In this document: piece by piece, positions 10,082-64,000 of the stretch | Position numbering within the stretch: the first letter of the stretch is position 1 | How the letters are laid out: the number at the start of each line of letters is the position of its first letter | Assembly: GCA_002989075.1 (NCBI GenBank) | Contig: PSQN01000016.1 | Location: forward strand, 806,001-870,000 | DNA length: 64,000 nucleotides | Source of the DNA: Arthonia radiata | Taxonomy: Eukaryota > Ascomycota > Arthoniomycetes > Arthoniales > Arthoniaceae | Direction of reading: 5' to 3' | The notes under the pieces: model-generated | Database searches by the model: none | What the model saw: the letters and a program-made list of their open reading frames with translations, nothing else | What the model was told of the DNA's origin: nothing | Position numbers and translations under genes: made by a program

Positions 10082-10857
10082 GATGATATATGGCGCTTGC
10101 CGCGAACAGGTCTCTGCTCAAGAAAGGCTAGTGAGATAGTGTGAGGAATGTGTTCGATGATTGATGGCCCGCAGCGACCACGCCCTTGGTGGCAAGCTTG
10201 TATAAGCTTTGGAGATGCCTACTCCAGCGTGCTAGCACTTTCTGAAGTGATTTCAGACCGCCTCGCTGGTTGTGCTGTTGCCCTTCACTTTGTTCCCATG
10301 CTTCTCGCGCACGCTAACGTCGCCCCATAGCGAATTCTCCCGAAGTGATGTTCCACGCACTGAGACATGCAATCATACAAGGAATGTACCACGCCAGCGA
10401 GTTGATTTCCAGGCTAGCGCGGGCTCTAGCGTGATCTCTAGCGCCGCCGGGGTTAAGGAGGCCTTAATCCGATGTCAAATCTGGGCATGAATCGCATCTT
10501 AACGCGCATTCATCTCATTTCCAAGATACTCCTCGCGCTGCCCACCGCTGCCAACTATGTACCCGTCTTTCCTTCAACGTTGACCATATCATTTTCCTAG
10601 CACCTGTCACTCCTTTCAGTCCGATGGAATAAGACGGTCGCCAAGCTGACCACGTGCCCCATTGTCTTGAGCTTATGACAGCTCTGCCGGCGATCCGATA
10701 CCTGGCAATTGCGTGGGGCCCACCCTCTACCGAGATGAAACCGCGTTCAAAAAGTCAATAACCTTACAATTAAATCGTCGTCGCTTATCAGCTTTACTCT
10801 ACAAGCGCCGGATTTCCGAATACAAGCCAGAGGCAGGCTGTCGCCGCCAACGCGACC
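10082..10857. promoter_or_regulatory. Divergent promoter region, DPP III and SskB-type kinase
   Basis: A 776-bp stretch between the two divergently transcribed start codons. No open frame of note. It must hold both core promoters and 5' leaders; the part next to the kinase ATG (CGCGACCATGTCC, good start context) is likely the kinase leader. I could not single out regulator sites. Confidence 0.55.
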
Positions 10858-13800
10858 ATGTCCACAGACAACTCGTCCGAGTTCGTGAACGAACCCGTTC
10901 GGGGCACCAACCTTTCCGAATTGTCAATGAACGGCATTGATGGGCACCGCTCGCGACAGCAATCGTCAACGGATGACGCGGAGAGCAGCGATGAGGTTAC
11001 ACCTTTGCGCGACTCTGTATCTTTTGGATCCTCAGCACTACCAGTAACATCAAACGATTTTCTCATTGGCCCACCTCCAGCACCTAGTTCCAGTTACGGA
11101 TCCGCATCTCCCTCATCAGCGTCTCCACACTATGCAACCTTTTCACAAGCGCAGGCTCGGTCTCGGGGCTCAAGCTCGCAGAACCTCAACAGCATTGACA
11201 CGCAGTTTTCCAGCCCCGGAACTCCCTCATCTCGACCGGTGCGCCCAGGTCCGACCCGAACACCTTCGCACGCTTACGCACCAGCTCGTAGACCGAGTCA
11301 ATTTGCACTCAGCGCGGCGAGCCAAAACCGGTCGTCCTCAGGAACACGCTCCTCCCGTTTAAATCCCGACGCCGATTATCGAGCCCAGAAGAAGCTGTAC
11401 GCACAAAGACTGCAGCAAGACAATGCCGAGAACACACAGCCCATCAGTCCTGATGAGTACCCTCCGAGCCTCGCTTACAGCGATCAATCTGGAGATGAAG
11501 AGGAGTCGCCGCTCACCGCCGACTATGGAGACAACGATCCATATGACAATGAACAAGATGCGATGATGTTCTATGGCAACGAAGATAATCAGCCCTCGTT
11601 GGAAGAGCTCAAGAACCCTGACAACCGGGAGAGACTAGAGTGGCACTCCATGCTAGCCAGCGTCTTGACTGGCGACGTGGTGAAACAGGAGAAAAAGCGC
11701 ATAATAGGCGCGCCAGATCAAGCGAGCAATGCAGTCATGAGAGCAGAGCTATGGATGGGTGTGCGAGCCAGAATATGTGGTCGGACTATACCCACGCAAA
11801 AAAGGATGGTTGAAGAGCAGCGGGCCAAAATTGTCACCATGGTCGAGGAGGTTGTCTCTTTCGAGATTCAAGGTGTAACGGAAGTTGGCAAAGGGCCTCG
11901 CGAGCAGGTAGAGGATGCTGTGAACAAGATTGAGAAGATCGAGAGCTTGTATCCAACAAGAGCAGCTTTGGAGGTCGCATACCCGCGAACCGCATCGGAC
12001 GACTATCGAGAAAGCTGCGATGCTTTGATCTCTTGGCACAACACGACCGAGCTTATCAACACGGAGCTGGCTGTGTTGCAGGCCTGGGTCGGCAACGACG
12101 AGCTAGACTTTGCCAAAGCGAACAAAAGCGAGGATGAGAGTGGTCTCGCGGACGAGTCCTCGTTCGTGGAACGAGTACTAAAAGAGGACGGCCTGAAATC
12201 ATTACAGGGAGAGCACAGTATCCTTCACGCAGTCGACAAAGTCATTAACAAGTCGAAAGCGACCTTGATTGAAAACGCACAGCTTTTCCAGAACAAGCAC
12301 TTGCCGCCGTACATTGAAGAGCTGCTTACTCTCATCAACTTCCCCTCGCGGCTGGTGCAGGAAATTATTCGCATGCGGCTCTCTTATGCTAAGAAGATGA
12401 AAGACGCCGCGCAACAGGGCATCCTGCTGACTGAGCAGCTGATTGCGCAGTTCCAAATCTTGCTTGAGCTTGCCGAAAGGATCAAGCAAATGTACCTGAT
12501 TATATCAGCGCCCCAACCCGGTTGGGACTTGCCTCCTTGCATTGATGAAAACTTCGATCTGGTCGTGCTCGACGCACTGCGCTTCTACTTCAAGATGCTC
12601 AACTGGAAGCTGTCTGCGAACAAGAACACTTTCAAGGAAGCCGAGATCCTCGAGCAGGAGTGGGGCTTCTCATCCAGGCTGGGACGTCATTTTCAAGGAG
12701 GTGATGTGCAGGTAGCCGAACAGTTCGCGCAGCTCACGTCCAAGTCTATCAACAGGTTGACTACACATTTCGAAAAGGAGCTTCAGCGAAGACCTGACGA
12801 GGTCGCGGGCCCTGACATGGACAGGCGCTACAAGCAAATGCTCGATTCCGTTCGCGTCCGCCAGCGAAAGTTGTTCCGCTTCTCTCGTCTACTTTCACAA
12901 ACATTCGAGAACGCAACAGAGTTTGCAGTATCTTCCTCGGACGATCAGCTTGAGCAGCTGCACAACAGTCTGCTCGAGACAGGCCATATACTCATCAACC
13001 CTATCGCTGGTAACAGCGACAGGATGTTCATTTTCGCCTCCCCTGTTTTGCAGTCGCGGCCACGAGATGTTGCCTCTCTGTTGGAAGCAGCTTATCGCAT
13101 TGACGCCCCCGATCCATCCGAGCCGTACATCATCGTTGTCTGCCTTGAGTCCGGGTTCGAGTGGGATGGCATCAGGATGGACGTGGATATGCGCCTTCCG
13201 AAGCTCGAGGTCAGGCCTGGCAAGTTGCGGCTCATCGCTGAAGGCGCCCAGACCCTACTGTCAAACGCGATCGAGATTTTCCTCGACACAGTCGGTCTTG
13301 ACTTCGATGTTGTTACCCCGCAGTGTGCAAACCTAGCGAGCGTCGACAAACACTTGCATTACATCCGAAAGAAGACCTATGATTTGTCGAATACAATTAT
13401 GGACAGCGTAGAGATCATTCGAAATCAGCTTGCGGATGTCGAATGTGAGGAACTCATACAGACATGCTTTGCATTTGCGACGGAGTTTGGCCAGCGATCA
13501 GTCATCTACATGGACCGCAATCGACGTATGCTCAACAACCAAAGGCTGGCTCGACTGTCTCTGGATTGGGTTTCGTTCATCTGCGATGACTGCAAGGCGG
13601 CTGAGCGAAGAACCTTCCGTTGGGCAGTGCAGGCTTTGGAATTTGCAATGATGCGGACTTACGGTCAGAACATTCTCCTGCTCTCGCCTCAAGAGTACGC
13701 AAAGCTGCGGATGAAAGTGTCAGGCTGCATGAGTCTGCTCATCTCCCACTTCGATATCATGGGTGCTCGCTCAACGGTCGCCGCGCAAGCCGAGAAGCAA

Positions 13801-15057
13801 CGTGAGTCCATGACGGGCAAGTTCAAGCTTGACGTCAGCAAGATGAAGAACGACGAAGAAAGCTCCCACATGGTCCGTCAACAATGGCTTGAGCAGCTCG
13901 ACTATCTGGATGCTCAGCGTCTTGAGAAAGAAGCAGAATTCCGAGCTTTCGGACGTGTTCTTGAGTCCTCGACCGAAGCCGATCGGTCGCTGACACTGCT
14001 CTCTGCATCTGCCACGAACGTCACTCTGCGTTGGCAGCAGGGGCAGTACATCGGCGGTGGTACCTTCGGAAGTGTATGGGTCGCAACCAACATTGACTCA
14101 GGTCACCTCATGGCCGTCAAAGAGATACGTCTGCAGGACCCACAGATGATACCCACCATCGTCGGCCAGATCCGAGATGAGGTGTCAGTATTGCAGATTC
14201 TACGTCATCCCAATATCGTCAGCTACTACGGTATCGAGGTGCACCGTGACAAGGTCTACATCTTCATGGAGTACTGCAGCGGGGGCTCACTAGCTGCGTT
14301 GCTAGAGCACGGTCGCATCGAGGACGAGATGGTTATTAGCGTCTACGCTCTTCAGTTGCTGGAAGGACTGGCATATCTGCATGAATCCGGAGTCGTTCAC
14401 CGCGACATCAAGCCGGAGAACATACTCCTCGATCACAACGGTGTGCTTAAATACGTCGATTTCGGCGCAGCGAAGATCATTGCCAAGCAGTCTGGACGAA
14501 CCCTCGCACCAGCCGGGCCTGGTGAGAAAGCTGCTGTGAATGCACAAGGCGCCGGTGCCGGTGGCCGAGGTCGACAAAAGTCAATGACGGGCACACCAAT
14601 GTACATGTCTCCCGAAGTCATCCGCGGCACGTCCTCAATGCCAGGTGTGCCCGGCTCACCAACGGCCACGCCACGCCACGGCGCTGTCGACACGTGGTCG
14701 CTCGGCTGCGTAGTACTAGAAATGTCCACTGGACAACGACCATGGGCGAGCCTCGATAACGAATGGGCAATCATGTACAACATCGCGCAGGGCAACCCAC
14801 CGCGCATGCCCACCCGCGACCAACTCAGCGACCAGGGTATCGACTTCCTCAAGAAGTGCTTTGATCGCGATCCCAGCAAGAGGGCCAGCGCGGCGGAGCT
14901 GCTGCAGCATGAGTGGATCATGGCGCTGCGGAACCAGCTGAATCTCGAGCCGACTACGAGCGGGAGTCAGACGCCGCAGACGCCTAGTGACGCCGGTGGT
15001 TCGAATTTTGGGGGCACAAACAGTGGTCATGTGACCAGGCAGAATAGTATGGTGTAG
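10858..15057 (+). CDS. sskB: HOG-pathway MAP kinase kinase kinase (SskB / Ssk2 / Wis4 type)
   Basis: One exon encodes 1399 aa. Residues 1 to about 240 are Ser/Pro-rich and disordered. The long middle (about 250-1040) is the conserved regulatory region found in Ssk2/Ssk22/Wis4/SskB, where the response regulator Ssk1/SskA binds. The kinase domain spans about 1055-1350: glycine loop GGGTFGSVW near 1066, catalytic lysine in MAVKEIRL near 1088, HRDIKPEN near 1181, DFGAAK near 1201, and a GTPMYMSPE activation end near 1246. The C-terminal tail is Ser/Thr/Gly-rich. In the family the kinase phosphorylates the MAPKK Pbs2/PbsB, which activates Hog1 in osmotic and oxidative stress. An uninterrupted 4.2 kb frame is unusual in this window but plausible for this gene. 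Confidence 0.95.
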
Positions 15058-18591: not shown

Positions 18592-20058
18592 CTACGAGGA
18601 CCTCCCAGCCAGTCCGTTTTCCTCAATGGCCTTCAACGATTCCCCCACGCACTCACTCAAGCGATCCCACAATTTGAAAGGGCAGACGACGTCTAGCCCC
18701 TCGTCATCCGAGTCTGGAACATCCGAGTCTGAAACCTCCTCGAACTCGTAGTTGGTGTTATTGTCACCGTTCTCACCGACCGCCCCATCAATCCTCTCTC
18801 GTTGCTTTCTACTATACTCGTCGGCCAACCTCTTCTGCTCTTCAATATCCACCTTCGTCTCTACGCACTTTACCGACACCGCCTGCAACTCCTTCACAGT
18901 AGTTTCTCTCCAGGACGGACTTATAATTGCGAGCTCCTTCGCAGCGGTAACGAAGGCTGCCTTAGACGTCTTATAACACTCCCCACATTCGATACTCCGA
19001 CGGTGGAGCCAGTCGAATTTCCATTGGCGGTGGTAATAGTATCGAGGGCCGTGGTGATTGAATTCAAGGCCAACAACGTCATCAGAGTCAGCGTCCCAGT
19101 CGGGATCCAGAGGGCAGGTATGGTGCGTGAGATTGTAGTGAAGTGTGGTGAATGCATCGTTGAGCGATGCGATAACGACCAGAGCTTGAAGCTCTGCAGG
19201 CAGCCCTTTCGGAAACGCTTTCGGTATTTTGCAAGGGACTGTGTTGCTGCAATTCGTTGGTTCTGCGAGTTGAGATGACGGCATCGTGGGCATTGGATGT
19301 TGATCTGTTCGTGTAGTAAGTTGAAGACTGGACTGCTCGCTTTCTTCAGTAAGCAGCGAATGCTCGGGCGTTACCGAAAATCGGGAGACGCCGTTTGAGA
19401 GCTCGACCGGAAGAGCATTTTGTGGAAGGTGCTCGTGAGGTAGATTAGGTAGGTGAGGCATCGTCTGCTTGTTCTTCTCAAACCGGTCGATCGCCAGACT
19501 TGCTAAATCCATGCCTTCTTTAGTAACGTCCACAATCTGGCTCCACAGGAAAACATCATCCGTTTCGTCGTCCGCCGAATTTTCGTACGCCCACTTCATA
19601 GCATCACGCTTCGACAACGTCTCTTGCAAGAGCTTCCTCCGCGCGTCTCGCTTCTCTTTTGCATTCTCTAACTTCTCCTTACACCTTGTCAGCATTGGCT
19701 GCAGCTCCTGCAAGACGATGGAAGTCCGCTGCCCGCTGACACAAGCAAAGCGCTCAACCATGAAGGCAAATGCCATGCGCGCTTTATGATGGCAGGCAAT
19801 GCACCCGCGCTCTCCGAGGTGGTCAGCGGGTGTGGTCCAGTGATGCCGGTTCTCAGATGTGTAGGGGTCGATGACTACTTTGTGATCCAGTGGACAGCTG
19901 TATTGGTGGGTGGCTTCGATGAGACTTTTGTATTTCTTGGTGAGTAAGGGGTGGATGATGGCTATGAGGAGCTCCGTCCAGAGCGTCGGGTTGGCATTGC
20001 CATTTTCAGTTCCGTGAGTGGCGGAGGCGGACGTTTGTGGCATTGCCATGGTGAACAT
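18592..20058 (-). CDS. Array member 1: two-domain fusion protein, function unknown
   Basis: Single exon, 488 aa, ATG at 20058; a second in-frame ATG at 20049 has the better context (ACCATGG) and may be the true start. The protein holds the array's domain twice. Copy A, about residues 27-145, has LWTELLIAIIHPLL, SCPLD, CIACHHKARMAFAFMVERFA and VLQELQ. Copy B, about 283-410, has LPAELQALVV, HTCPLD, CGECYKTSKAAFVTAAKELA and ISPSW...VKELQ. The link between them is charged and Ser/Gln-rich, with a coiled-coil-like KEKLENAKEKRDARRKLLQE stretch. The C-terminus is acidic (SDSDVPDSDDEG-like). Neither copy has the intron that splits the single-domain neighbours. No named family recognised; F-box-like by its first helix only. 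Confidence 0.82.
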   Translation of the reverse strand: MFTMAMPQTSASATHGTENGNANPTLWTELLIAIIHPLLTKKYKSLIEATHQYSCPLDHKVVIDPYTSENRHHWTTPADHLGERGCIACHHKARMAFAFMVERFACVSGQRTSIVLQELQPMLTRCKEKLENAKEKRDARRKLLQETLSKRDAMKWAYENSADDETDDVFLWSQIVDVTKEGMDLASLAIDRFEKNKQTMPHLPNLPHEHLPQNALPVELSNGVSRFSVTPEHSLLTEESEQSSLQLTTRTDQHPMPTMPSSQLAEPTNCSNTVPCKIPKAFPKGLPAELQALVVIASLNDAFTTLHYNLTHHTCPLDPDWDADSDDVVGLEFNHHGPRYYYHRQWKFDWLHRRSIECGECYKTSKAAFVTAAKELAIISPSWRETTVKELQAVSVKCVETKVDIEEQKRLADEYSRKQRERIDGAVGENGDNNTNYEFEEVSDSDVPDSDDEGLDVVCPFKLWDRLSECVGESLKAIEENGLAGRSS

Positions 20059-20520
20059 GGGTAGCCGGATGGGTGACAGGGTGAGAATGTTGGCGGTGTT
20101 CGAATATCAATTCAGGACACGTACGAAGGGACGGTGTTGCTGGCCTCTGTCGGGTATTCACGCTCTGTTCTGGAGTGAGACGCAGTGTAGGCGGGCCTGT
20201 GCTGAGTATGTATAGGCGCTGTCTGAGCGCGTTCACTTGGCGAGATGCTGTGCACTCATCTGGCAGCAATCATCCATTGGAGCGCCGTGCTGTCTGAGCA
20301 CTACTCCCCAGTATCGCCACGTCACTGAACCACAAGTAATCAACAATTTATGAAGGGGTCCATACGTCTCAGCAAAGTCCAATACATTATATCTTGTGCA
20401 CACGGAACCTTCTGAGCCATCACCAATGCCGTCTGAAGCCCGCCACGCCAATTGAAACTTTCTCTGGAGCTTGAGACATAAACTTCCAAATTGTCTCACT
20501 TCACACTGCAGCCGTCTCTT

Positions 20521-21115
20521 TCAGACAAGCTCGATAGCCTCCTGAATGCTGAATCGTACTCGGTACCAACATAGCCTATCCCAATGGATCAGTATTTCCC
20601 TTCGGTCAACCCCGTATCCCTTACCACCCGATCCCATAATCCGTTGCCAACCTCCGGCATCTTCAACAAGGGTTTTCGCAAGAAAGTCGTCATCCGCGGA
20701 GGTTAGACGGTCAAGTTCGCGCGCCACTGTCTTGCACCACGGTAGACTTACGCCGCCAAAGCGAACAAATGCGTCGTGGAAGTTGTCAATTGACTAGGGT
20801 TTTCAAGCATGTCAGCACAAGTGCGTGGTCGATAGAATTTGAAAAGGGGGTTTAGAGCACGGAAAACATGGCGTATGGGGTATTAGGTAGACAGCTACGT
20901 ACCTTCGCCAGGAAGGCTGGGCTGCTTGCGGGATCTGTGCGCCTAGTAACACGGTTGTTTACGACATCCTCTTCACTAGGTAAGTAAGTGCGTGAAGGGC
21001 AGAAAATTGAGTAGACGATCTCGTGGAGGAAACCACGCAACGCCTCGGTGATGATCTGGTCTTGTATCTCCGTGGGCAGTAGGGGCAGTCGTTTCTCGAC
21101 TTTTGAATGTGCCAT
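20521..21115 (-). CDS. Array member 2: F-box-like small protein, function unknown
   Basis: Two exons, 20903-21115 and 20521-20793, 161 aa; the 109-nt intron (GTACGT...CCCTAG) is phase 0. I start at ATG 21115 (GCCATGGCA, good context) because the F-box-like LPLLPTEIQDQII then lies at residue 9, as in the neighbours; the frame is open further up to 21235. Exon 1 keeps a CP pair (FCPS) but has lost the C-x2-C. Exon 2 has the family helix, SIDNFHDAFVRFGGVSLPWC then VARELDRL. The tail is diverged. Confidence 0.75.
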
Positions 21116-21558
21116 GGCGATGATTGGATTTGATGCGCCGCGCGTAGGTGTGATTGGTCTTCTGGGCTTTCGTTTGCCAACAACAGTGTCTGAAGCGTGT
21201 TGAATTCCGAGGAGATGGATGCCTTGACACTTCAATCAGCGGCGATTTTGTATTCTATGTGGTAGACATACGAGTGTACAGTAAGCAGATGCTGTTGAGG
21301 ATGCTTTTAGTATCATAAAGTAACAGCTCTTGCACGGTATGCGGCGTCTGAGCACGCTGCATCATCATGACTGTACCTTCTGATCTAAATTATCACAATG
21401 ATTCTTCTACAATTATGACTGGTCGCATGCCTACTTGCCTTGAAATGGGACAATTACACGGTTCACGGTTCGGACGACATCCGACGTACTCTTTTGCACC
21501 TCTTTCCTCCTGCCAAGTCTCGTCAAGTCAACTTACCTGTGTCTTATTTCCAAAACAA

Positions 21559-22157
21559 TTAACTCACGGCGCTTTTTATCCACCACCATGTCCGCACCGC
21601 CTGCGATCCACTGTTCTCGTCATCGGATTCTCCATAGTCATCCGAGTCCTCGTCCTCCTCATCCGAACCACCTTGCGGACGTCTCCCGTAGAGTGACCTA
21701 ATGTGAGCAGCTGCATACCGTTGATCTTCGGCTCTTTGCCGTCTGGCATCGCTAAGGTTCCAAGCCAATTCTCTTTCCAGGCTCATCGCTTCCTCCCGAA
21801 CTGTTCCGCACCACAGTGGGCTGACGTTGGCGAGTCGCATGGTTGTATCCTCAAAGTCGGAGCAACACTATGTGACAGTCAGTGTGTTGCGTTGAGTAAT
21901 CTCCTGTTCGGTAGTGAGGTCTTGTGCGTAGTCCAGAGCGCAGTCAAGGGGTTTCAAAGTCAACTCACACGCTCAAGCCATATGTCGCGGGAATCTTCCC
22001 AGTCCTGACGCTCGTAATCGTCGTATATGCAAGGGCATTCTTCAGTCTCCATCTCTTCGAGTCTCCGGAAAGGATCGCTCAGGATCTCCAGAATAACTTG
22101 GATTTGGACTTCGGCTGGTAGCACAAGCGGTAGCCGGGGCTCAGCGACGCTTGACAT
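21559..22157 (-). CDS. Array member 3: F-box-like small protein with acidic tail
   Basis: Two exons, 21969-22157 and 21559-21867, 165 aa; 101-nt intron with GTGAGT donor and ACATAG acceptor, phase 0. Exon 1 starts MSSVAEPRLPLVLPAEVQIQ, the family's F-box-like motif, and has a CPC in an acidic stretch. Exon 2 opens CCSDFEDTTMRLANVSPLWC and goes on to an E-rich helix. The C-terminus carries an acidic, Ser-rich run at about 135-155 (SDEEDEDSDDYGESDDENSG) not seen in the neighbours. Function unknown. Confidence 0.75.
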
Positions 22158-22571
22158 CGTGATGGTATCGACGGTGGGGCGGTTGGAGGAATTTCAACAG
22201 TAAGCTTTCAGGTGATGTTCGGCAAAGGTCGATGGTGATTTGATGCCGATGCGCGAGCTGGCGTTGAATACGAGAGACGGAAAAGCTCTAGATCGTGTGT
22301 CTGATGAAAAGACTGAGCGTTGTCTGAGCACTCGCGAAATATCCATCATTATGACGCGCAATGAGTCTGCGACTCCAATCCATCGCCTGGCGGTCTGGCG
22401 GCCGTGTCTCTTTCTGTTAGTTACACGGCAGTTCCCCCTGAATACGGATCGCGCCTTCACTCTTTAATCTTTCTTCATTGAGAGCTGCTACTATTGACTA
22501 CCGGTAGTGCTTGAGCTGCGCGGGTAGTCACCGCGGGCAGTCATCGTCCACATTTTGACTGCCCCATCTCA

Positions 22572-23217
22572 TTAAACTGCCTCTCGGATGCTGTTCTCCG
22601 CTACACGCGCCCAAAGCTCTTGTCGCCTTTGCACAGTCTTGGTAGCAACGCTCATCGTATCCAAAAGTAGTTCGCAGCAGTCCAAAGGGGTTACTGCTCC
22701 CTTGAAGTGCGCCCCAAATCGAATCCTTTCAAGATCTTCATCGCTCAATCCCGCGACCTGCTCCCAACTGCTGGGATCTACGCGCAAGGCTTTTGCGACA
22801 TCTTCGTTGAGATTCAACCTCATGCGATGTAGTTCTGCCAGCACCATCTCGCACCATCGCAGACTGACGCCAGAAAGCCGATCGACAGCTTCTATGAAGG
22901 CTTGCTTGTGCTACATGACGTCAGAAGTCAGGCAATCACGTCTCCAGATAGCACTGAGTAAGCTGCTTCTTCTACAGTGTTCTCGAGAGTCGGGTCTGGT
23001 TTACCTTCTTGACGCATACCTGGCATCCTGCAGAGCCTTTGTGCCCGTCCGCAACAAAGCCCGCGTAGATCAGCCCAAGTGAAACCCGAGGGCAACAATT
23101 GTTCAGCAACGTGGTATTGAGGTGATCAACCACAGGCCGCAGAGTATCTGCGATGATGAGCTCTTGTAGCTCTGTGGGTAGTGAAGAAAGTGGTCGGGCA
23201 CTGGATGTCATTGCCAT
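22572..23217 (-). CDS. Array member 4: F-box-like small protein, C-x2-C kept
   Basis: Two exons, 23005-23217 and 22572-22910, 183 aa; 94-nt intron, phase 0. This is the clearest single-domain member. It starts MAMTSSARPL, then LPTELQELIIADTL, CCPR, and C-Q-V-C just before the splice site. Exon 2 opens HKQAFIEAVDRLSGVSLRWC and continues VLAELHRM. Joined across the intron, the stretch lines up with copy B of array member 1 at both cysteines, AF, S-x2-W and EL. The remaining 80 residues are helical and charged. Function unknown. Confidence 0.8.
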
Positions 23218-23512
23218 GTTAGACGATGTTCTCGATATTCACAGCGGGATTGGTGGTAGAATTGTAGACTTGAGCAATCGGGGTGTGAGTAAGGTTGCTG
23301 CGGATGACAAAATCGTAAGTGTAGGTATTGACCTGCGCAGTATTCCATGCTCGCCCTGTCTAAGCACAACCTGAACACAATCCCGGACCCTTGATGAAGT
23401 CATGTTAGAGCACCTCAGCAACACGTAGCCGTATGCGAATAGCCATTTCATCCTCTTAGCGTACCAATGCGCTCGCGGTGCAAGAAATGAAACAAATGGT
23501 AAATCCACACCT

Positions 23513-24175
23513 CTACTGCGCGTACCTCTCTCTCGCTTCCAACCACAGCATGTTCCATCGAGACACAGACCTCGCAGCATCCATCACGAGCTTGTCTATC
23601 TGTCTCCAACCGAACGCCTCGTCAGTTTGCCTATATATATAACCATCTAATTCGTCGTCATCATCTATGTCCACAACAGGCCGTGGTGGAAAACAATCTG
23701 CCTCTTTATCAGGGTTCGTCTCGGCTTCGAACTTTATGCCGTCGACTTCATATGCCAGGCGCCAGATCTCGTTGAACGTTATTTCACACCACATAGGGCT
23801 GATGTTGGCGAAGAGAGTAGTATCTGTGACGAATGTTTGGTACCGCTATGAGGGATTAGCAAGGACTTTAGCTTCGTCAACAAGATAGAGAATGAGAGAG
23901 CGCCGGGAGGTGGGTGGGAGGGGGGAAGATCTCGCGCAAGCTTGCGTGCGGGTTGAGAGAGGACTCACGTCTTTCAGACATTCCAGACATGCCATGCGGC
24001 CGGTATGAGGGAGCCGTGGCCGATAGCCCCAGAAAGCGTGATACCGGTTTGGGCATGCTTGGTGCCATGTAGTATGTATAAGCTCGAACAGTTCAGACCG
24101 TATGGCGATGGTGAGGATTTGGGACAGCAACTCCATTGGTAGAACAGGCGGCGACATGGATATTGCGGGTACCAT
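23513..24175 (-). CDS. Array member 5: F-box-like small protein, C-x2-C kept
   Basis: Two exons, 23969-24175 and 23513-23845, 179 aa; 123-nt intron (GTGAGT...CTCATAG), phase 0. Exon 1 has LPMELLSQILTIAI, ACPN and CLEC three residues from the splice site. Exon 2 opens RYQTFVTDTTLFANISPMWC, then FNEIWRL. A run of aspartates (VVDIDDDDELDGY) lies near residues 120-135. The domain order is that of array members 4 and 6. Function unknown. Confidence 0.78.
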
Positions 24176-24594
24176 GCTGAGCGTTTTGAATCTTAAAAGG
24201 GAATTGTCTTGGGATCGGAGGCTGATACGGCTTTTTGCTTTCTGAGGTGCCAGAAGTCGAGATAGAACTAGTGATAAGGGGTAGATTGGAAGTAGTTATG
24301 AGGGTAGCATAGCATGATTGATGAATGAGGCTCGGGAGTTGTAGTTTGAGCCACGATGCGTCAGCGACGTGACAATCAGATGAAACTCCTCCAAGGGTAG
24401 GCTCATACGGCATCGCAACGTCAGACCATTCACTTCCACCGATAATACCAAGAAGATCTACCTACCAATAGCGGCCCCAGCATTCTATCAGCCCTACTCC
24501 ATCATCGCGCTCTCATCAGAAATCATAGCCTCCTGCTGCAATTTTCAGGACCCGTTTCTAGCTGTTCGTGGATACAAAGTAACAGTCTTGCCAA

Positions 24595-25117
24595 CTATGC
24601 CTCTGCACCCCATACAAGCCACTTGTTTTCGCGCTCAGAAACATAGGCCGAGGGCGAGAGCTGCCACATCGAAAATCTGTGAACAAGATCGGCAAGCGAG
24701 TACTCGATAAAGTCTCCATGCCATGCCCGCAGCACGTGCACCCGAATATATCGCAGTTCTTTAATTGATAGGGTCCACCACATTGGACTAACCTGCGCGA
24801 GGTTTGCGATAGCTGACTTGAACTTCGCGTCGGCCTACAGTGCGTTAGTGCGCTGTGGCCTCAAGACATCATGTATTCACAAGGTATTCATTTCGGGTAT
24901 GATTGGTAGCAGAGAGACTTACGATCATCATGCAACATGCGCAGCCGCCCGCCGCTTTGTGTCCCCCGAGAACGCGAAACTCGATCCGCGGACACACATT
25001 GTTGAACGTTTCGTATACGAGACCATCAAAGGCAGCCCGTACTGTGTGAGCGACTATAAACTCCTGCAGCTCGATTGGGATCGAGAGCGTTGATCTAATG
25101 GCCGCAGTAGATTCCAT
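24595..25117 (-). CDS. Array member 6: F-box-like small protein, shortest
   Basis: Two exons, 24923-25117 and 24595-24834, 144 aa; 88-nt intron (GTAAGT...CTGTAG), phase 0. Exon 1 has IPIELQEFIVAHTV, VCPR and CACC, close to array member 4 in spacing. Exon 2 opens ADAKFKSAIANLAQVSPMWW, then SIKELRYI. The tail after the helix is short. Function unknown. Confidence 0.77.
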
Positions 25118-25544
25118 GCTGGGCTATTGTAGGGCGCAATGTGATGAGGTCGTCGGTATGGCCAAGAAGAGTTTTTTGGTACACGTGCAAGGTGTTAAAG
25201 AAACTGAAGTGCTGATGTCAGACATTGTCATGCATTATCGTTCAAGCAACGTCTAAGCACGCTTAGCATCCCTCATCTTACGCGGAGGCCAGCGGTCGCT
25301 CTTATATCAGTTTTGTCGAGAAACGGTCGGCTGAAACCATGCCTTTGAAACAGCAGACATTGCAAGGGTAAAACACATAAATGCCATGGCTGTACTCACT
25401 GTTCTTTCACCGCTAGCTCTTGATATAAGTGAGCGAACACCACCAGTTCTGTGGAATGCAGCCCTCACCCGGACAAGTGCAACAGCAAAGAGCTCCCAGC
25501 TGCCCCTTCTTCCACCACGCAGTTTAGCACAACTGCTCCGCCCC

Positions 25545-26138
25545 TTAGAGCAGTAGTCCATCTCTCAAAGCAACACTCTCAGCAGCAGCCAGCTCAGCCA
25601 CTTGAAAAGCCTTCTCAACCTCGAGCTCCTTAATAATCATCGCAAAATGCGCCTCAACCAAAAGCGTTTTGTCCATCTCATCACCAATCTCATCACCAAT
25701 CTCATCACCAATCTCATCACATGTGTCACACTTCGGGAACTGATATACGCTGTTGCAAGCGCTGTGAAACCACCTTTCATGCTTGAAGGATCGTTCCATC
25801 AAGAGACTCTGCAGCTCTTGAGCCTGTTGGCGATGCTCGACGCAGAGGCGCAGTAAGGTTTCCGCCGCTGCTACGCCAAGCTCGCACAGTGCGACTGCTG
25901 TGATTTCGTACGCTTCGATTTTGATGATAACGCATGTGTCGCAGTATGTATCTGGCAGGGTTCCACCTGCACGATGTATCCAGTCTGTATCGTCTGTTGG
26001 ACATTTATCGCTTCGAGTGTATCGTAGAATGTCGGCAAAGTGCGAGTCCATGCAGTCCTCAACAATCTTGAGCACAAGCTCCAAGGGCAGTGATAGTAGT
26101 AGTTGATGCAGCTTAGGCAGGAGTAGTGCCGATAACAT
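25545..26138 (-). CDS. Array member 7: F-box-like protein with EIGD repeats and ALR tail
   Basis: Single exon, 197 aa. The N-terminus has LSLPLELVLKIVEDCM, KCPT and YCDTC, matching the intron-bearing members, followed by a helical AVALCELGVAAAETLLRL. The second half is new: a C-x2-C (CDTC), then a DNA-level 12-bp repeat coding EIGD four times, and the tail AESVALRDGLLL shared with array members 8-10. It therefore links the two halves of the array. Function unknown. Confidence 0.75.
   Translation of the reverse strand: MLSALLLPKLHQLLLSLPLELVLKIVEDCMDSHFADILRYTRSDKCPTDDTDWIHRAGGTLPDTYCDTCVIIKIEAYEITAVALCELGVAAAETLLRLCVEHRQQAQELQSLLMERSFKHERWFHSACNSVYQFPKCDTCDEIGDEIGDEIGDEMDKTLLVEAHFAMIIKELEVEKAFQVAELAAAESVALRDGLLL
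25678..25725. repeat. 12-bp microsatellite-like repeat inside array member 7
   Basis: Four perfect copies of TCATCACCAATC plus a partial fifth. On the coding (minus) strand each unit reads as the four codons E-I-G-D, so copy number can change without breaking the frame. Perfect identity suggests recent or ongoing slippage. Confidence 0.9.
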
Positions 26139-26675
26139 TTTTCCGTTAAGGTCTCAATGGTAGTCGCGAGTACGGCTGAATTCGCTGTGCTGTCGCAGCG
26201 TCCGGGATATCCAACAAATTGCTAGTGCCGGTTGATTTGGAAGACGTCGGGCCTGTGGGTCGTGGATTGCAGTATATATTCTATTGTCAGAGCGTACGTA
26301 CTGCTCAGACCTACGACGCTCAGACATGTGCAATATCTGGTGTCGGGTTACGGTACAGTAAGCGTCCACTGCCATACTTATATCCGCCATGCTAATTGAA
26401 AGAAAAATCTCATCTGTGTAAGTCTGATTTTGCACACGTTCTGTTCCGACGCCGCTTTGTGGTCCGAAAGACAATGTAATGGCATTTCGATACGAAAGTA
26501 AGCCGACAGCCTCCACACTGTTTCTTCTCTTGATTCTTTGTGGCCTTTTAGCCCTTAAAGCGGAGAGGATGGCCGAAAAGCTCAATCCAGAAGCAAAATG
26601 AACTCGCTCGTGTACTTTCTCAGAACACATTGTACTAGTACCTAGCACTCTTAGCATATCGCTATGTGCAGCCTA

Positions 26676-27176
26676 TCACACATGAAAAGCCACGCTCTCC
26701 TCCAGCACCATCCCAGTAAATTCGCTTGAGCACACCACCGGCGCTTGCAGGCGCTTCAGCTTCCTGTCAACCAGAAAGAGTTCACGATACTCATTTACGC
26801 CCCATCTGCACCGTTGACGATAATACTGACCTGAGCGTACGTAACTGCCACATATACGAAAGTGCGTTATATGCTCATTCCGAGCGGAGCGCGCATGTTC
26901 GAGTCGCTGTCGCGCCATCGTCTCGTATTTGTTTACGCGCTGCATGGCTTCGATCATTGAAAAGCGAGAAGTAAGAGCAATGCCTTTGAATGCCTGAGTG
27001 AAACCTTTGATGTCAGGTACGGGGTATAGTGTCGTTTGGTCAGAATGTTCTTCCCAGTAGCGCATCGAGAGTTCAGGGAAGTCTGCGTGGAGAGTGTGGT
27101 CAAGGATAGCTAGATAGGTCTCCAGTGGTAGTCGCGGCTGATCACGTTCGAGACGGCTGACGTCGGACTTTGCCAT
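26676..27176 (-). CDS. Array member 8: F-box-like small protein
   Basis: Single exon. I start at ATG 27176 (MAKSDVSRLERDQ), which puts LPLETYLAILDHTL near residue 15 as in the neighbours; an in-frame ATG at 27245 would add a hydrophobic stretch with no counterpart. Length 166 aa. CP and C-x2-C are lost. The C-terminus ends LEESVAFHV, a diverged form of the tail in array members 7, 9 and 10. Function unknown. Confidence 0.65.
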   Translation of the reverse strand: MAKSDVSRLERDQPRLPLETYLAILDHTLHADFPELSMRYWEEHSDQTTLYPVPDIKGFTQAFKGIALTSRFSMIEAMQRVNKYETMARQRLEHARSARNEHITHFRICGSYVRSGQYYRQRCRWGVNEYRELFLVDRKLKRLQAPVVCSSEFTGMVLEESVAFHV

Positions 27177-27524
27177 AGCGGTCGCTGCTGAACGTTTGAT
27201 CTGAAGTAGCGGGGCGATCAGAGCGCTTAAATTAACACAAAGCAAGCTTGCTGTATGAGCTGTCGAGGCGTTGGCAGCAGTTGCGGAGTATAGACAACGT
27301 TTAAGGATCGGTTGACGTGAAAGCGTTGCTCAGTTGGCATCGTATATTAGTCATGAGTCCGGCCAATGAGATGCCGAACACTGATTTGTTGATGAAGCCA
27401 TTGATGAAGAGGACATGATCGATACTCCAACCGAATCCAGTATGGCAGGAAATGGAAAGTGGACAAGCTTGGAATGTTCTTGTGATCGTTGATACCGCCA
27501 AGCTTTGGGGTGCAGGAACCCAAT

Positions 27525-28118
27525 TCAAGCCAGCAGCCCACCGCGCAGTGCAATGCTTTCCTCAAGCACTTCTTCTTGCAAGTCAATAGAGTTAAGTACG
27601 TGCATGTATATCTTGCCTAGGACGCTTTCCACGTCGAGAGCATGCCTGTAGGTCCATCTACCCCAGTTGCAATCGTGGCCTGTACTTGACTGCAAGATTA
27701 CCCATTTGTCCTTGATGTTGTGGACGTTGCGACAGTGCTCATCCCGCGCCTGCGCGGCCTTTCTGGTACTGCCGCGGGCGTTTCGCAGAAAGTTTTCAAG
27801 TATGCCCGCGATTTGCGGCACGCACAGCAGTGACAGCCGCCGCGACAGCTGCATTGTCAACTCTGCTGCCTCCAAAAGGTTTACGTGACCAGAATCAAGA
27901 ATGTAGTTTTGGAGCCGCCCGACTGTTCGATTTTGCTGATCTCTGATGTGGTAGTCGCGAGGGTAATCGGGAAGAGCGAAACAATGTCCTTGCTCAGTAA
28001 ATGATAGCATATTCTGCAACGGAGCTTCCAAACTGGAGCGGATAATCTGGAGGTGTATCTCAGGCGGAAGGTGTAACTTTTGCAGCTGTTTGCGCGGCTG
28101 CGACAATGCCGTAGCCAT
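27525..28118 (-). CDS. Array member 9: F-box-like small protein
   Basis: Single exon, 197 aa, same length as array member 7. It has LHLPPEIHLQIIRSSL at about residues 15-30, a long helical middle (AAELTMQLSRRLSLL) and the tail LEESIALRGGLLA. The cysteine pairs of the array are missing except for one Cys after the first helix. Function unknown. Confidence 0.7.
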   Translation of the reverse strand: MATALSQPRKQLQKLHLPPEIHLQIIRSSLEAPLQNMLSFTEQGHCFALPDYPRDYHIRDQQNRTVGRLQNYILDSGHVNLLEAAELTMQLSRRLSLLCVPQIAGILENFLRNARGSTRKAAQARDEHCRNVHNIKDKWVILQSSTGHDCNWGRWTYRHALDVESVLGKIYMHVLNSIDLQEEVLEESIALRGGLLA

Positions 28119-28953
28119 ACGGACAGTGAGAATCCTAGTGGTCCCGGCGTAGGCGCGTGGCTGATCGGAGGCCCGTTTTGCGAAAGTGATAATGTCGCTT
28201 TGCCGGGGTCAGGGTGGTTCCCTCAACTGGTAGGAATTAGAAAGCAGGCTCCAGGACCGCCGAGACTCTTGGCTAGCCGTTGTTATCATATTGACGCGGT
28301 CAGAGCGTAAGGCAGAGAGATAAGATGATAGATGGTAACGGTCATAATGATGGCGCCAAGCGTCGATCGTTGCAGCGGGCGTTCCACCACACTCTCGTTT
28401 TGATCTTGAATCTTGAATACTTGATGCGCGCGATCGCCTGCAGCAGAGGACCAACAGGTGTCAAGCCTCACCGACTGTCATATTTGAAAAGCGCGAACAG
28501 GCCAGACAACCAGAAGCAACACGGTTGCAAGCACATCCCAATCAATTTACTTGTCGTCGCTATCCAAAGCATTCCTAGGAGCCCTCGAAAGAGTCATCAT
28601 AAACATCACGCAGGAGGAAGACATCAACTAGAGTCAAGTAATTGAGACGCCCCGACGCCAGGATATACCGAGCTGTCGACGACAGAAATGAATCTTGCAA
28701 GATGAACAAGATACTTACTCTTCTTTGAACTTGCTTGCTTTCCTGAAATTTCTACCATTTTGCCGCTAGTGAACGCGCCGACGCGTGCGCGTATGTCACC
28801 TGTATTTGGATACCTTGAGATGGATGTGATTTAGAAGATACAGCCAGGGTGACCTGGTTTGTACGCCCGATGGAGTATCATTCCGCAGGTACGACCGCGC
28901 CAAGCACACGAATCACTTGTCATTCCCACTCCCTCACTCGGCACTGCTGCTAC

Positions 28954-29703
28954 TCACGAAGGAAGAAGCAGTTGTCCATCTCGCAGAGCCAAGCTTGATG
29001 TCAATGTATCGTCCTGGCGCAAGTAAGCTCTCGCCCTCGCATGCATACGGCGCGCGCTGTGAATAGCCATGGGGATCTTGACCAAGTCTTTGTAGTTCCA
29101 CCACACCTGCATGCACCCCGGACAGGAGCAACCCAGCTTGGGGCGAAGAAAGTCCTTGTTGCGTAGAGCCATATGCAGGTGGTCGTTCGGGTCCCTGATG
29201 TCGTCGATGGCCAGAGAACCTGCCTTGACTAGGTAGTCATCGATCCACACGGCCACCTCATCACACACGGACTTCGAGAGAAAACCGATCTCGTAGACTG
29301 CGCGGCGAAAGAAAGGTACGAGAATCGGCACTCTTGAGAATAGTGATTCGTCACTGCTAAAGATAGATTCCATGGTATCATCGGAACGTATCGAGCTGGC
29401 GTCGCCGTCGCTGTCATCCTCTCTGTCATCCTCCGTGATCGTCATGCGCCCTTCCTCCACATCATCGGCGGTCTGGCGGTCGAGAATGGAAACGAGTGTC
29501 AACGATGTCTTGTACGTGCCTCTTATGGTTCTCTTGTACACATCTTCCAGACGGTAAGAGATTATTTTTAGTATGATCTCATCTGGAAGTCGAGGCAGCG
29601 CTGCACTGCTTGGTGCGAAGGACAGATTGTTCTTAGTGACGCGTTCGCAGTTGTCCTTCGTATTGGCCTTTCTTCGCTTCAGCGTTGACGAGCACTGACC
29701 CAT
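28954..29703 (-). CDS. Array member 10: F-box-like protein with possible lipid anchor
   Basis: Single exon. I prefer ATG 29703 (249 aa) over the upstream in-frame ATG 29787 because it gives MGQCSSTLKRRK, a textbook N-myristoylation head (Gly2, Ser6) with a palmitoylatable Cys4 and a basic patch. LPRLPDEIILKIISYRL follows at about residues 33-50, then an acidic Ser/Asp-rich stretch, a helical middle, a C-S-C-P-G-C cluster near residue 205 and the tail SSLALRDGQLLLPS shared with array members 7-9. If lipidation is real this member would sit at a membrane. Function unknown. Confidence 0.7.
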   Translation of the reverse strand: MGQCSSTLKRRKANTKDNCERVTKNNLSFAPSSAALPRLPDEIILKIISYRLEDVYKRTIRGTYKTSLTLVSILDRQTADDVEEGRMTITEDDREDDSDGDASSIRSDDTMESIFSSDESLFSRVPILVPFFRRAVYEIGFLSKSVCDEVAVWIDDYLVKAGSLAIDDIRDPNDHLHMALRNKDFLRPKLGCSCPGCMQVWWNYKDLVKIPMAIHSARRMHARARAYLRQDDTLTSSLALRDGQLLLPS

Positions 29704-30173
29704 GCTGGCACTTGGAGCGAATGATTTTTCAAGATGGTGAGGTGTCGATACTGACACTGTAAGATGCACTCTGATTGAGGCGTTCATGCTGCAGAGAAGT
29801 TAGCGTGTTGTCGAAAGGTGATTGCATAAGCGTTTATCCAGACAACCGTCATATCGTCAGATGACGATAAGCTGGGGTCGAATAGGCGGTGAAAAAGAGT
29901 TCGATATCACAGTCTTTACACAGGTCGTGAAGAGCTATCTACGCGCGACCGGCAAATGGCTCGATGCCCGAATGCAGTCGTGGTGGAGCAGGCGCATTGG
30001 CGGTCGTACATGTACAGCTGTCGTAAGGCCAGTATCAATCTCGGTGGAGCGAGTTTCGCAAGCCGGACGTGCGAGAATCGCAGGTCGCATCCAATTCCCC
30101 AAAGCCGGAAAATGTCGTGGACTCATATCGTCGATTCCAAGATGTCACTTCCAGCGAGGTGGGCTAAGAGTGG

Positions 30174-31686
30174 TCACCCTCCTTTCTCCAGCCACTCTCC
30201 GAATTCATCAATGCGCTTGCCCTCTCCCTCATCAGCACCATCAGCCTCCTTCTCCGGGCGGCTCTTTTTGAAGCGCTCGCTGCCGTCCGCAATCTTGGCG
30301 ATGACAGATTTGCCTGAGAAAACGCGGCCATGCATGATTTTGACACACTCACGGGCGGCCCTCGAGTCTGTGAAGCGAACCGTTGCCGCGCCGCGTGGGT
30401 CTTTGTCAAACACCGTCACATTAGTTACTTGACCCAGCTTTTTAGCTTCGTCCTGGATGTCTTCGCGTATATCTCCAAGCGCGTCGGGGTCATCATCGAT
30501 CTCAGCAAGCGTGAACATGTGCTCTAGTACGACGACTTTGTCGAAACGAGGGTTGGTCTGAGGAAGCGCGGAGACGTCTTCGTCGGAAGACCAGTCGGCC
30601 AGCTTCCTAGGGACCCGTTAGATTGTAGAATGAATGGTTCCAGTACTGGCGATACGTACTCATTCATCTTCTGCGCCTTGGCCTTGACCTGTTTCTGGTT
30701 ATGGGTAGGGCGCTTTTTGCGAATAGAGAATGCCTCATCGCCGTCCACTTTGGCCTCATCATCCTGATTCTCGTGATGCTTCTTGAAGCTGCGATCAGCT
30801 TCGGTTACATGCATTGGGCCACCGGGCCCAGTCACTCTGTGTGGCCAGGGTCAGTATTGAGGACATTCGGGAATAGATCGGATCATCTGCGCTTACCCCA
30901 GTCTAAAGTCGGACTCATCCAACATCTGGATAGCAAGTGAGACACTCTCCGGGCGAAAGAAGACAACGAGCGCCTCGCCCATGAACTTTCCGTTCTTGTC
31001 CGTGTACATCTTGATACGGTGGCGGTTGTTGTCTGTGCCTTCGGCGATCAAGCCATATTTGCCAAAGACGGAGGCGATCTCGTCGGCATCTGCATTTAAA
31101 GGAATTGAAGTCGCGTAGACAGCGGTATTCGGCTTCTCTGGGGCTGGCTTTTTGGCTTTTTTTGAGGGAGCATCATTCTGGTGAATCCAAGTCAGTCCCG
31201 CTGTGTATGCAGCATGAACAGATATGCTCTTGGAAGGCTAAAGACTCGCCTGGGTATCCACCTTCCGCTTGGTGCCAGCTCTTGAGGCAGCCTCATCGTT
31301 ATCACCTCCAGTATGTTCATCGTCATCCTTAGCGGCATAAGCCTGCTGTTGCTGCTCTTTCAGAGAATCATCGAACTGTGTGCGCAAGGCGCAAGTGAGT
31401 ACGTGTCCGTATTTTGCCAAGCTGAGTCACGCTGCTCTCGCTGCTGTCAAGCAAGGAGTCGAAAATGCTGGAAGCGTACCACTAGAGTCCATTTTTTTAC
31501 TTTCTCGTTCCACTCAAACTCCTGTCCGTCGTCATCCTCGAGGAGCCATCTGCCGTCGAGCTGCGACTGAGCACAGCGTGGGTCTTTGACAAAGTCCTCC
31601 TGAGTTTGTGGGAACGCGACCTTGACGGCCGATAGCTGATCGTTGGGCGGTGGGGAGCCCTGTTCGGGCGCGAAAGACTCGGCCAT
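30174..31686 (-). CDS. CUS2: Cus2 / Tat-SF1 family splicing factor, two RRMs
   Basis: Five exons, 31480-31686, 31250-31375, 30897-31177, 30660-30836 and 30174-30606, 407 aa; all phases agree. In yeast Cus2 helps fold U2 snRNA and binds the SF3b protein Hsh155; human Tat-SF1 is the homologue. The N-terminus has a GYF-like WLLEDDDGQEFEW segment. RRM1 lies at about 130-205 (TAVYATSIPLNADADEI, MGEALVVFF). RRM2, of the UHM type, is at about 284-375 (VVVLEHMFTLAEI, GAATVRFTDSRAARECV). Between them is a lysine-rich link. Intron 2 has a GC donor (CAG|GCGAGT) with a normal CAG acceptor; splicing it keeps frame and homology. Confidence 0.9.
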
Positions 31687-61840: not shown

Positions 61841-64000
61841 CAATCCCTTCTCTTCTAGTTAAATTGTCCTTGATTGACCCTTAGCCTTTTAAACACCTAT
61901 AAGTTGCGTTTCGTCCCTCCTTTTCGTAACTAATCTGTAAGTCGCTATGCCTCGTATAAAGTCCGTTGCTGCGGGTCCTAATAAAAAGTATAGCTAATAC
62001 CTGTTAATTGAAGCCTACGGTATCGAAATGCCTCCTTGTTCTAGATATGTGTCGACTAAGGAAAGATATGTAGTTTAGTTCAGGAAGGCAATATGTTCGG
62101 TATGTACTTAAGATAGGAAGAGTTATAATTTACGGGTGTTAATAATAGATAGTATGCCTTGTTAGTGTCTTTTTGTGGTAACTAGAACTAACTTAGTTAC
62201 AGCGCGTTCGGTTTATTCTCAATATTCCTCTTAGTCGGCTGCCCTTTAGCGCGCAAAGAGCCAATTATGTGCGTTAAAGGCTCAGGCAGCAGCGTTGGTT
62301 GCGGTTGTATAGCGTAACCGATCTAAGGTCCGGAAGTTAAAAGAGAAGGTTAAGAAGACTTGTACGCGGGCAGCAGCGAAGTTAGCTCGAAATAAGTTGT
62401 TAGAGTAAGAAGAGTTTGCTACGTCGATAGCTGGTAATAATATATTTAAATGTCTGAGCGGATTATCTATTAACTTTCAGAGTAACCTCTATCCGGTATT
62501 AAGTAGTAGTCCTGTAACATAGTAAGCTGGTTCGTTTAAGGGTAATCTAGGTACCGGCGAGGCACACTAGGTAGTAAATTAGGGTGTTAGTACTGCTACG
62601 ACCGATTAATATTTTAGTCTCAATATCGTCGAATAGTGTCTTTATAGTTAATTAGGTTTTATTCCGGTTTCTATTAATTTTTATGTTCGGAATATTCTTT
62701 CTACTTTATGAGATACTGTCGTTTGCCTCGGTGTTGTCTATAAGCTCGGATCGTTTCGATCTTATACTCGGGTTCTTAATTGTTAGAAAGGATTTCTAGG
62801 TTGAGTTGTTCTGCTTTTTGGGAGTAGGCTGGTTCTAACAGCGCTACGTAGAATATAAGATGTATTCTTATTGTCTTCGGGAGTTTAAGTTTAAAGGTTA
62901 TAGGTCTTAATTGCTGTAAGATTTTAAATAGTTCTGTCTTAGTATAGTCGAGTTTTTTGCTTAGTCTAACGGTTTTTAAGTTTCTTATAAGCAAGTAAGC
63001 TCTTTCCCCCTCTTTTATGCCTGTGTTTAGGGTCGTTCTAGACTTATTATATTATTTTCTCGTTCGTTCTGTAATAAACTCGCTGTTAGACTTTAACTGC
63101 TAGTGTAGGTATCTTATGTTCGTAGCTATTCGCGTAGCTAATTCGTTCTCTGTAGTATTTTGTAGTTGTCTTCCTTAAAGAGGGTGATAGCTATATAAGG
63201 CGTAAAACGGAGTTATCTTAGTTATATCGTTCTTTGTATCGTTGTACGCTGCTTGCGCTACTAATAGTAACTGTACCTAGTCGTTTTACTGGTAGTTAAT
63301 GTATGCCCGCAGATACTATTTTAATGTTTAATTCGTTCGTTCTATTTGTCTGTCTGTTTGTAGATAAAATAACGTAGACATCTTTTATTTTGTTTCTAGT
63401 TGTTGTATTAGGGATGTTTAAAATCGTAAGACGAATTTCTGGTCTCTGTCCGAGACAATTCTTTGCGGTTAACTATAGTTTGCCAGGATAATCCGAAGGA
63501 ATGTATATACTAATTGTTCTAAGTTGCTAGCTTCCTTGTAAGGTACAAAATATGCGTATTTTGTTAGTTTGTCGTATATAACGAGGATAGCGTCGTAAGC
63601 TACTTCTGTAAGTAGATCCTTGGATATTAGTAGTTTGGTTATAAAGTTCAGTAAGACTGTATACTATAGTCTCTCGGGTATTTCTAGTAGTTGTAGTTTA
63701 CCGTATAGTAAATATCTTGGGTGCTTGGTTCTTACGTATATATCGCATTCTTAGATATAATTCTCGACGTAGTGTTAGATTCTCGGAATATAGTACGTTC
63801 GTATAATCTTTTTAATAGTGTTGTCGATGCTCTTGTGTCCCTTCGTTGGGTTATCGTAGAAGTTACTGATAATATGCTGGATTAGATTCCTCGGAACGTA
63901 GATTTTGCCTTAGAATTCGTAACAGCCTTTATTGTTCTTAGTTAATCTTAGGTGTTGTTTCTCGTTTTCCTGGTAGATTTTAGGATCATTCAGGATATCC
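61369..64000 (-). mobile_element. Gypsy-type (Ty3) LTR retrotransposon, fossil, runs off the window
   Basis: Minus-strand element. Its 3' LTR is 61369-61840. A short surviving frame at 62776-62994 matches the region after the Gypsy integrase core ('KLDY' to 'LLEPAY'), and pol-like sequence continues to the window end. Between pol and the LTR, about 61945-62560 on the opposite strand, lies a relic of an extra basic, Cys-containing reading frame. The DNA is AT- and TpA-rich, as after repeat-induced point mutation. Broken many times over (dozens of breaks). Age cannot be set because the other LTR is outside. Confidence 0.8.

Follow-up and report, generated by a model that had tools for sequence, protein, structure and literature searches.

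What do ten small, strongly diverged genes lying side by side on one strand of an Arthonia radiata contig encode, and is their family confined to this place? The genes lie in a 64-kb stretch, here called the window (positions 806001-870000 of contig C2, the genome comprising 33.5 Mb on 16 contigs), and a preliminary description, made from the sequence alone, had taken their products for an unassigned, F-box-like, cysteine-containing family. The safest statement is that they belong to a family of small helical Cys/His proteins, undescribed in Pfam, that has expanded into tandem arrays, and the window array appears to be one of several local expansions in this genome. Possible, and put forward tentatively, is the reading that the family consists of fast-diversifying adaptors with an F-box-like mode of action, a zinc knuckle that has moved between positions and predicted binding of Skp1 and zinc; a zinc-bound helical protein with some other partner is nearly as likely.

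The array and its relatives in the genome

The array is situated about 0.82 Mb from the nearer end of C2 (3,489,740 bases). Gene models, made by eye and with a script without transcripts, bear out ten minus-strand genes (A to J) between 18592 and 29703 of the window, with eleven domains (J has two), as well as the intron noticed earlier at a fixed place in five of them. Genes A to D have no intron; E to I have one each, of 88-123 bp, always in phase 0, immediately ahead of the second helix block and bounded by GT and AG in all five, and in E, F and G it lies three codons after the second (last) Cys of CxxC. J is intronless, inside a frame open over 504 codons. In the following list, E is the expectation value, "outside" refers to a profile of 37 family members from outside the window, and "leave-one-out" to a profile of the other E-J genes.

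Gene A: 28954-29703, minus strand; single exon, 249 amino acids; helix LPDEIILKII; C-terminal CPGC; second branch of the family; outside E 3.6e-9 (an alternative in-frame ATG is possible at 29787).
Gene B: 27525-28118, minus strand; single exon, 197 amino acids; LPPEIHLQII; outside E 0.009, above all decoys and shuffles.
Gene C: 26676-27176, minus strand; single exon, 166 amino acids; LPLETYLAIL; outside E 1.6e-6.
Gene D: 25545-26138, minus strand; single exon, 197 amino acids; E-J profile 1.3e-5, outside 2.8e-5.
Gene E: 24595-25117, minus strand; exons 25117-24923 and 24834-24595; 144 amino acids; leave-one-out 7.4e-16.
Gene F: 23513-24175, minus strand; exons 24175-23969 and 23845-23513; 179 amino acids; leave-one-out 1.9e-16.
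Gene G: 22572-23217, minus strand; exons 23217-23005 and 22910-22572; 183 amino acids; leave-one-out 3.2e-22.
Gene H: 21559-22157, minus strand; exons 22157-21969 and 21867-21559; 165 amino acids; leave-one-out 6.8e-10.
Gene I: 20521-21115, minus strand; exons 21115-20903 and 20793-20521; 161 amino acids; leave-one-out 3.3e-10.
Gene J: 18592-20058, minus strand; single exon, 488 amino acids; tandem domains J1 (about 19609-19995) and J2 (about 18769-19227); leave-one-out, with both J domains out, 4.6e-22.

With hand-trimmed domains and each gene left out in turn, every E-J gene was recovered at E 3.2e-22 to 6.8e-10 by the profile built from the remaining genes, from a background of 634 decoy frames and 400 shuffles, the top background scorer (E 0.003) being a frame later shown to be kin. 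The full E-J profile is joined by D and does not recover A (0.98), B (0.04) or C (0.10). Thus, by this test, the ten genes of the preliminary description are a set of six, a bridge (D, recognised by both the E-J and the outside profile) and three more distant genes. The strong divergence reported there is evident in the comparison of E with G (38% over 79 columns) and in a tree of 46 rows, in which the median end branch is 1.77 changes per column; branch lengths of this order agree with its judgement that the array is old or fast-evolving.

Gene A, used as a query in a pairwise genome search, gave weak matches at three other places (E 0.02-0.28), and the places matched by A, together with some from a later genome search, proved when fetched to be further arrays, on C2, C16 and C9. 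A profile of 23 outside frames found 40 outside frames at E<1e-3 (the 23 seeds and 17 others) in the 136.5 kb fetched, located as follows.

C2, 3363.7-3384.9 kb, plus strand: 21 frames.
C2, 3405-3410 kb, minus strand: 2 frames.
C16, 1143-1148 kb, plus strand: 6 frames.
C16, 984.5-988.1 kb, minus strand: 3 frames.
C9, 1320.5-1324.4 kb, plus strand: 5 frames.
C9, 150.5-152.1 kb: 2 frames.
C6, 65 kb: 1 frame.

Four further outside frames are similar by eye, with weak scores (0.027-0.34). Including the window's ten, the family comes to about 50 frames, some of which may be exons of one gene; the figure is probably a lower bound, as the genome search gives scores to its top candidates only, and further weak matches, among them some on C3, C10 and C12, were left unopened. 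Weak family matches at C9:1331908 (E 0.28) and C10:2197801 (E 0.027) are perhaps more members. One outside member (C2:3374660-3375289) has a match to Holin_2-3 (E 4.8e-5, under the cut-off) that is probably due to chance.

Confinement of the whole family to the window array was rejected when A's weak matches turned out to be arrays. Confinement of E to J is suggested by pairwise genome searches with G, J, E and I, which gave one stray match on C1 (E 0.21), and holds at that sensitivity; D and B as queries found themselves only (C, F and H were not used as single queries).

The outside profile clearly recovers A, C and D, and places F, B and I at 0.004-0.012, above all of 568 decoys and 2000 shuffles. 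A direct comparison of the E-J and outside profiles gives 95.9-96.0%, and the 64-68 aligned columns take in both helices; the maximum among 100 column-shuffled profiles is 0.4%. E to J form one side of a branch in the 46-row tree (96/97, in a bootstrap that had not settled), and the other 39 rows, A to D among them, form the other side. The arrays cluster on this tree (11 changes against a shuffled mean of 25.3, with none of 200 shuffles as low), as local duplication predicts, and the genes probably arise by local tandem duplication.

Several results tell against uniting the two sides in one family. The outside profile alone misses H (0.18), J2 (1.8), J1 (19), E (44) and G (62); the second block alone, compared between E-J and the outside branch, reaches 14.4%, a value without a shuffle control; column shuffles are a mild control, and no unrelated helical family was among the controls; A to D are not one clade; and the branches of the tree are long, the program warning that long branches meet, also where the two sides join.

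The C-termini of A, B and D read S-[VIL]-A-L-R-[DG]-G and then Leu residues, and that of C is SVAFHV, a tail common to A to D. A pattern search found this tail in none of the fetched outside frames, but the frame C9:148731-149750 ends in TMLRNGLLA.

The Cys/His knuckle in the two branches

The E-J domains are built in the order LPxELQ helix, CP, H-x5-C-x2-C and then AF..A..RLA.VSP.WC..V..EL, and the consensus of the outside branch reads K..P.LPxEII..I...RL, a linker, Y......LA..S......V, and then H...C and CxxC. The earlier claim that shared motifs run through all ten genes did not hold as stated: CP, CxxC and S-x2-W fall mostly within the E-J domains, and A to D are in a different branch. All seven E-J domains have CP, as does D, and A has it far downstream; a CxxC close to the first helix is confined to E, F, G, J1, J2 and D, D having CP there as well and a second CxxC behind; S-x2-W occurs in six of the seven E-J domains, J1 being the exception, and A to D have none at the corresponding position. 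J1 also has LWTE in place of LPxE.

To the motifs listed before can be added a conserved His six residues before the first Cys (H-x5-C-x2-C), which is present in all five E-J domains with CxxC (five of seven overall). H and I lack both H-x5-C-x2-C and CxxC and keep CP. A zinc-knuckle ligand set of four (C..H-x5-C-x2-C) is thereby found in five of the seven E-J domains, the ligands behind CP being kept or lost as a set. H-x5-C-x2-C occupies the following positions, converted by hand from residue numbers.

24932-24961, minus strand: gene E.
23978-24007, minus strand: gene F.
23014-23043, minus strand: gene G.
19792-19821, minus strand: domain J1.
18976-19005, minus strand: domain J2.

In the outside branch the CxxC comes after the second helix: 26 of the 34 members long enough have one beyond residue 85 of the trimmed segment, compared with 1 of 99 decoy frames of the same loci (mechanical frames, most probably not proteins). 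The knuckle matched no named zinc-finger family in the Pfam scans. The C-P...H-x5-C-x2-C of E to J, between the LPxE and VSxxW helices, is a likely zinc site, and the metal binding proposed earlier for the CP and CxxC cysteines is strengthened by this ligand pattern, the bound metal being something that we infer. The metal knuckle is read as having changed place between the branches or as having been gained twice, and the data fit both.

F-box likeness and alternative readings

Pfam gave no match over a cut-off for any of the ten window genes, in keeping with the earlier label "unassigned". Among nine outside members, none had a match over a cut-off and no F-box family was listed at E<=1; among 30 outside members at E<=0.1, no family was matched in more than two and none was an F-box. 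No family in Pfam claims the members.

The family resembles the F-box (PF00646, PF12937) in having an LPxE-headed first helix (in the E-J alignment, J1 excepted, and as LPxEII in the outside consensus) and a VSxxW block in the same order (in six of the seven E-J domains; W is absent from the outside-branch consensus), and tandem expansion is also known of F-box genes elsewhere. It differs in the long stretch between the blocks, which in E-J is a long insert unlike the compact F-box core of about 45 residues, in the Cys/His knuckle there or behind, and in the lack of any model match over the cut-off. When the two profiles are compared with one of seven F-boxes from this genome, E-J scores 19.9% (shuffled maximum 3.0) and the outside branch 56.6% (shuffled maximum 1.6); the second block alone, in F-box register, reaches 5.3% against 3.9% for shuffles.

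These likenesses have to be set against contrary results. The alignment with the F-box profile spans the LPxE helix only (16-17 columns), and the best F-box-like Pfam match in the window is that of A, at E 0.06. A moderate AlphaFold model of J2, made with window sequences, has a predicted local distance difference test score (pLDDT) of 71.8, a predicted template-modelling score (pTM) of 0.47 and helices at 11-34, 82-100 and 104-152 (24, 19 and 49 residues); compared with the PDB by Foldseek, it matched nothing at E<=0.001, and none of 12 matches (best E 1.2) was an F-box. The model of D was uninformative (pLDDT 48.1). Of the earlier term "F-box-like", what stands is the LPxE helix and VSxxW block in the right order, far apart as they are; the F-box idea is best taken as one of resemblance, not membership, because the match is limited to the LPxE helix and neither Pfam, at its cut-offs, nor the PDB matches of J2 supplied an F-box. 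Solved structures searched by profile gave best matches at E 0.21 (E-J profile, A1) and 0.027 (outside profile, A5, a mitochondrial ribosomal protein), which were taken as chance.

Under the tentatively preferred reading of an F-box-like adaptor family, the LPxE-headed first helix and the LAxVS second helix would correspond to the two halves of an F-box, and the Cys/His knuckle, which E-J have between the helices and the other branch has behind them, probably holds zinc. The most likely docking partner of the helix pair would be Skp1 or a cullin-type protein, while changing targets may be recognised by the diverged parts (knuckle, linker and C-terminal region), giving a fast-turnover repertoire. 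The presence of relatives in several arrays makes a recognition or conflict role more plausible, the function itself being a prediction. The fullest version, a large hidden repertoire of F-box-like adaptors with the zinc knuckle between or behind the helices according to branch, in fast-turning arrays, for recognition in conflict (self/non-self, viruses, transposons, host proteins) and with one array under a common promoter element, is rather unlikely to be right in all its parts.

The long third helix of the J2 model, the absence of F-boxes from its PDB matches and the restriction of F-box likeness to one helix would fit helical or coiled-coil proteins, stabilised by zinc and unrelated to Skp1, whose partners are one another, nucleic acid or something else, LPxE being only a helix cap; one outside member with a weak match to a RING-like zinc domain (E 0.004, under the cut-off) points the same way, whereas the second block stands in F-box register, if barely above shuffles, and no convincing match to a known nucleic-acid-binding family was found in Pfam. 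Such proteins are a possible, though somewhat doubtful, alternative.

A repertoire for allorecognition or conflict, acting with NLR-type proteins rather than or besides SCF ligases, would suit the local arrays, the extreme divergence and the loss of motifs in some members, and some 230 bases before the start of the largest array there ends a run of frames that opens with an NB-ARC-like one (C2:3360939-3362201, E 0.0016, under the cut-off). This alternative is unlikely; nothing NB-ARC-like was found among four frames beside other arrays (a scan that did not take in the flanks of the C9 array at 1.32 Mb) or among ten frames flanking the array in the window. The weak NB-ARC frame and two unmatched frames just before the largest array (C2:3360939-3363493) look like an NLR-type gene.

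That the genes are mostly decaying duplicates under weak constraint is quite improbable: H and I are without metal ligands behind CP, J1 is without W, and gene structure around C2:3384556-3385307 looks broken or spliced, but the frames are open despite very high divergence, the intron ends are intact, the ligands behind CP are kept or lost together, and a 9-base upstream element is common to six genes. Least probable is that the first helix represents a DUF3420-type element instead of an F-box. DUF3420 (PF11900) occurs in NPR1-like cullin-3 adaptors, and no other Pfam family was matched by more than one of the 30 outside members at E<=0.1 (two, best E 3.4e-4), but the likeness is a short one of the LP helix (17 residues, where residues are shown), with no further domain matched and no BTB domain in the window and outside proteins scanned. 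The family 2EXR (PF20150) opens with an LPPELR-like motif and shares the LPxE-type opening, as seen in one 2EXR-type frame of this genome; it has three matches in the genome and none in the ten window genes at E<=10.

The F-box set of the same genome is of ordinary size (at least 32 matches, counted exon by exon), near the 31 reported for Macrophomina phaseolina (PMC7991009). Expanded F-box families of Caenorhabditis (PMC8665587) likewise show species-specific tandem duplication and rapid birth and death, with a proposed role against foreign proteins; they are annotated F-box proteins, whereas the family here is unrecognised as such. No such family was named in the titles and abstract openings of those open-licence papers of PubMed Central (PMC) that were listed in literature searches, which does not show that the family is unpublished, and a term search of the main text of a rock-fungus genome paper (PMC12560822) did not find "F-box".

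About 50 frames in one genome are invisible to Pfam, and family counts based on Pfam would miss this expansion. If the proteins feed a ubiquitin ligase, the fungus would join nematodes and plants in having a large, fast-evolving repertoire of degradation adaptors; if they do not, one more family of small Cys/His proteins would be added to those known. In either case the family can be put to the test with the profiles and the upstream element.

The upstream element and the surroundings of the array

Six of the ten genes have the element TGCTYAGAC in their upstream 300 bp, namely E, G, H, I and J and, with the element on the other strand, D; F, A, B and C have none within 350 bp.

25251-25259, minus strand: before E, 142 bp from the ATG.
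23358-23366, minus strand: before G, 149 bp.
22322-22330, minus strand: before H, 173 bp.
21346-21354, minus strand: before I, 239 bp.
20292-20300, minus strand: before J, 242 bp.
20221-20229, minus strand: second copy before J, with C for T, 171 bp.
26302-26310, plus strand: before D, on the other strand from the gene.
26317-26325, plus strand: second copy before D, with C for T, on the other strand from the gene.

The best 9-mer with at most one degenerate site reached no more than four regions in 200 shuffles of the upstream regions, compared with six observed; without degeneracy, the best 9-mer is in four regions against at most three in 300 shuffles. With 8-mers, six was also attained by 2 of 200 sets of regions drawn at random from the window, and the 9-mer is therefore the stronger statement. 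A longer form, GCTYAGAC-N3-GC, has 208 sites in the genome against 143 for the reversed control, a count that is not an independent test since the motif was chosen from the array. Five of these sites lie within 5.04 kb here, all on one strand, with E, G, H, I and J each preceded by one, and no other region with three within 10 kb is among the 100 places listed. A less favourable result is that, with one mismatch allowed, the window has 44 sites where 34.2 are expected, 7 of 100 shuffles being as high. The element is not clearly enriched at other arrays, with five in 40 kb of C16 (2.4 expected), five in 60 kb of C2 (3.7 expected) and none in 10 kb at C16:983-989 kb and C9:1320.5-1324.5 kb. Its presence before D, E, G, H, I and J suggests co-regulation of these genes, in which it may set a common expression programme.

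A 172-codon open frame between C and D (26157-26672) overlaps both copies of the element before D, and D itself contains a 12-base tandem repeat that codes for a GDEI repeat (25675-25720). The nearest recognised neighbours of the array are an MEKK4-type kinase gene (10774-15054, plus strand) and an RRM frame (30177-30617, minus strand), and a fungal transcription-factor domain was also matched in the window flanks. At the end of the window (62001-64000), G+C content falls to 0.366 with a GC skew of 0.194, unlike the remaining window, and this segment is perhaps a repeat or a mutated transposon.

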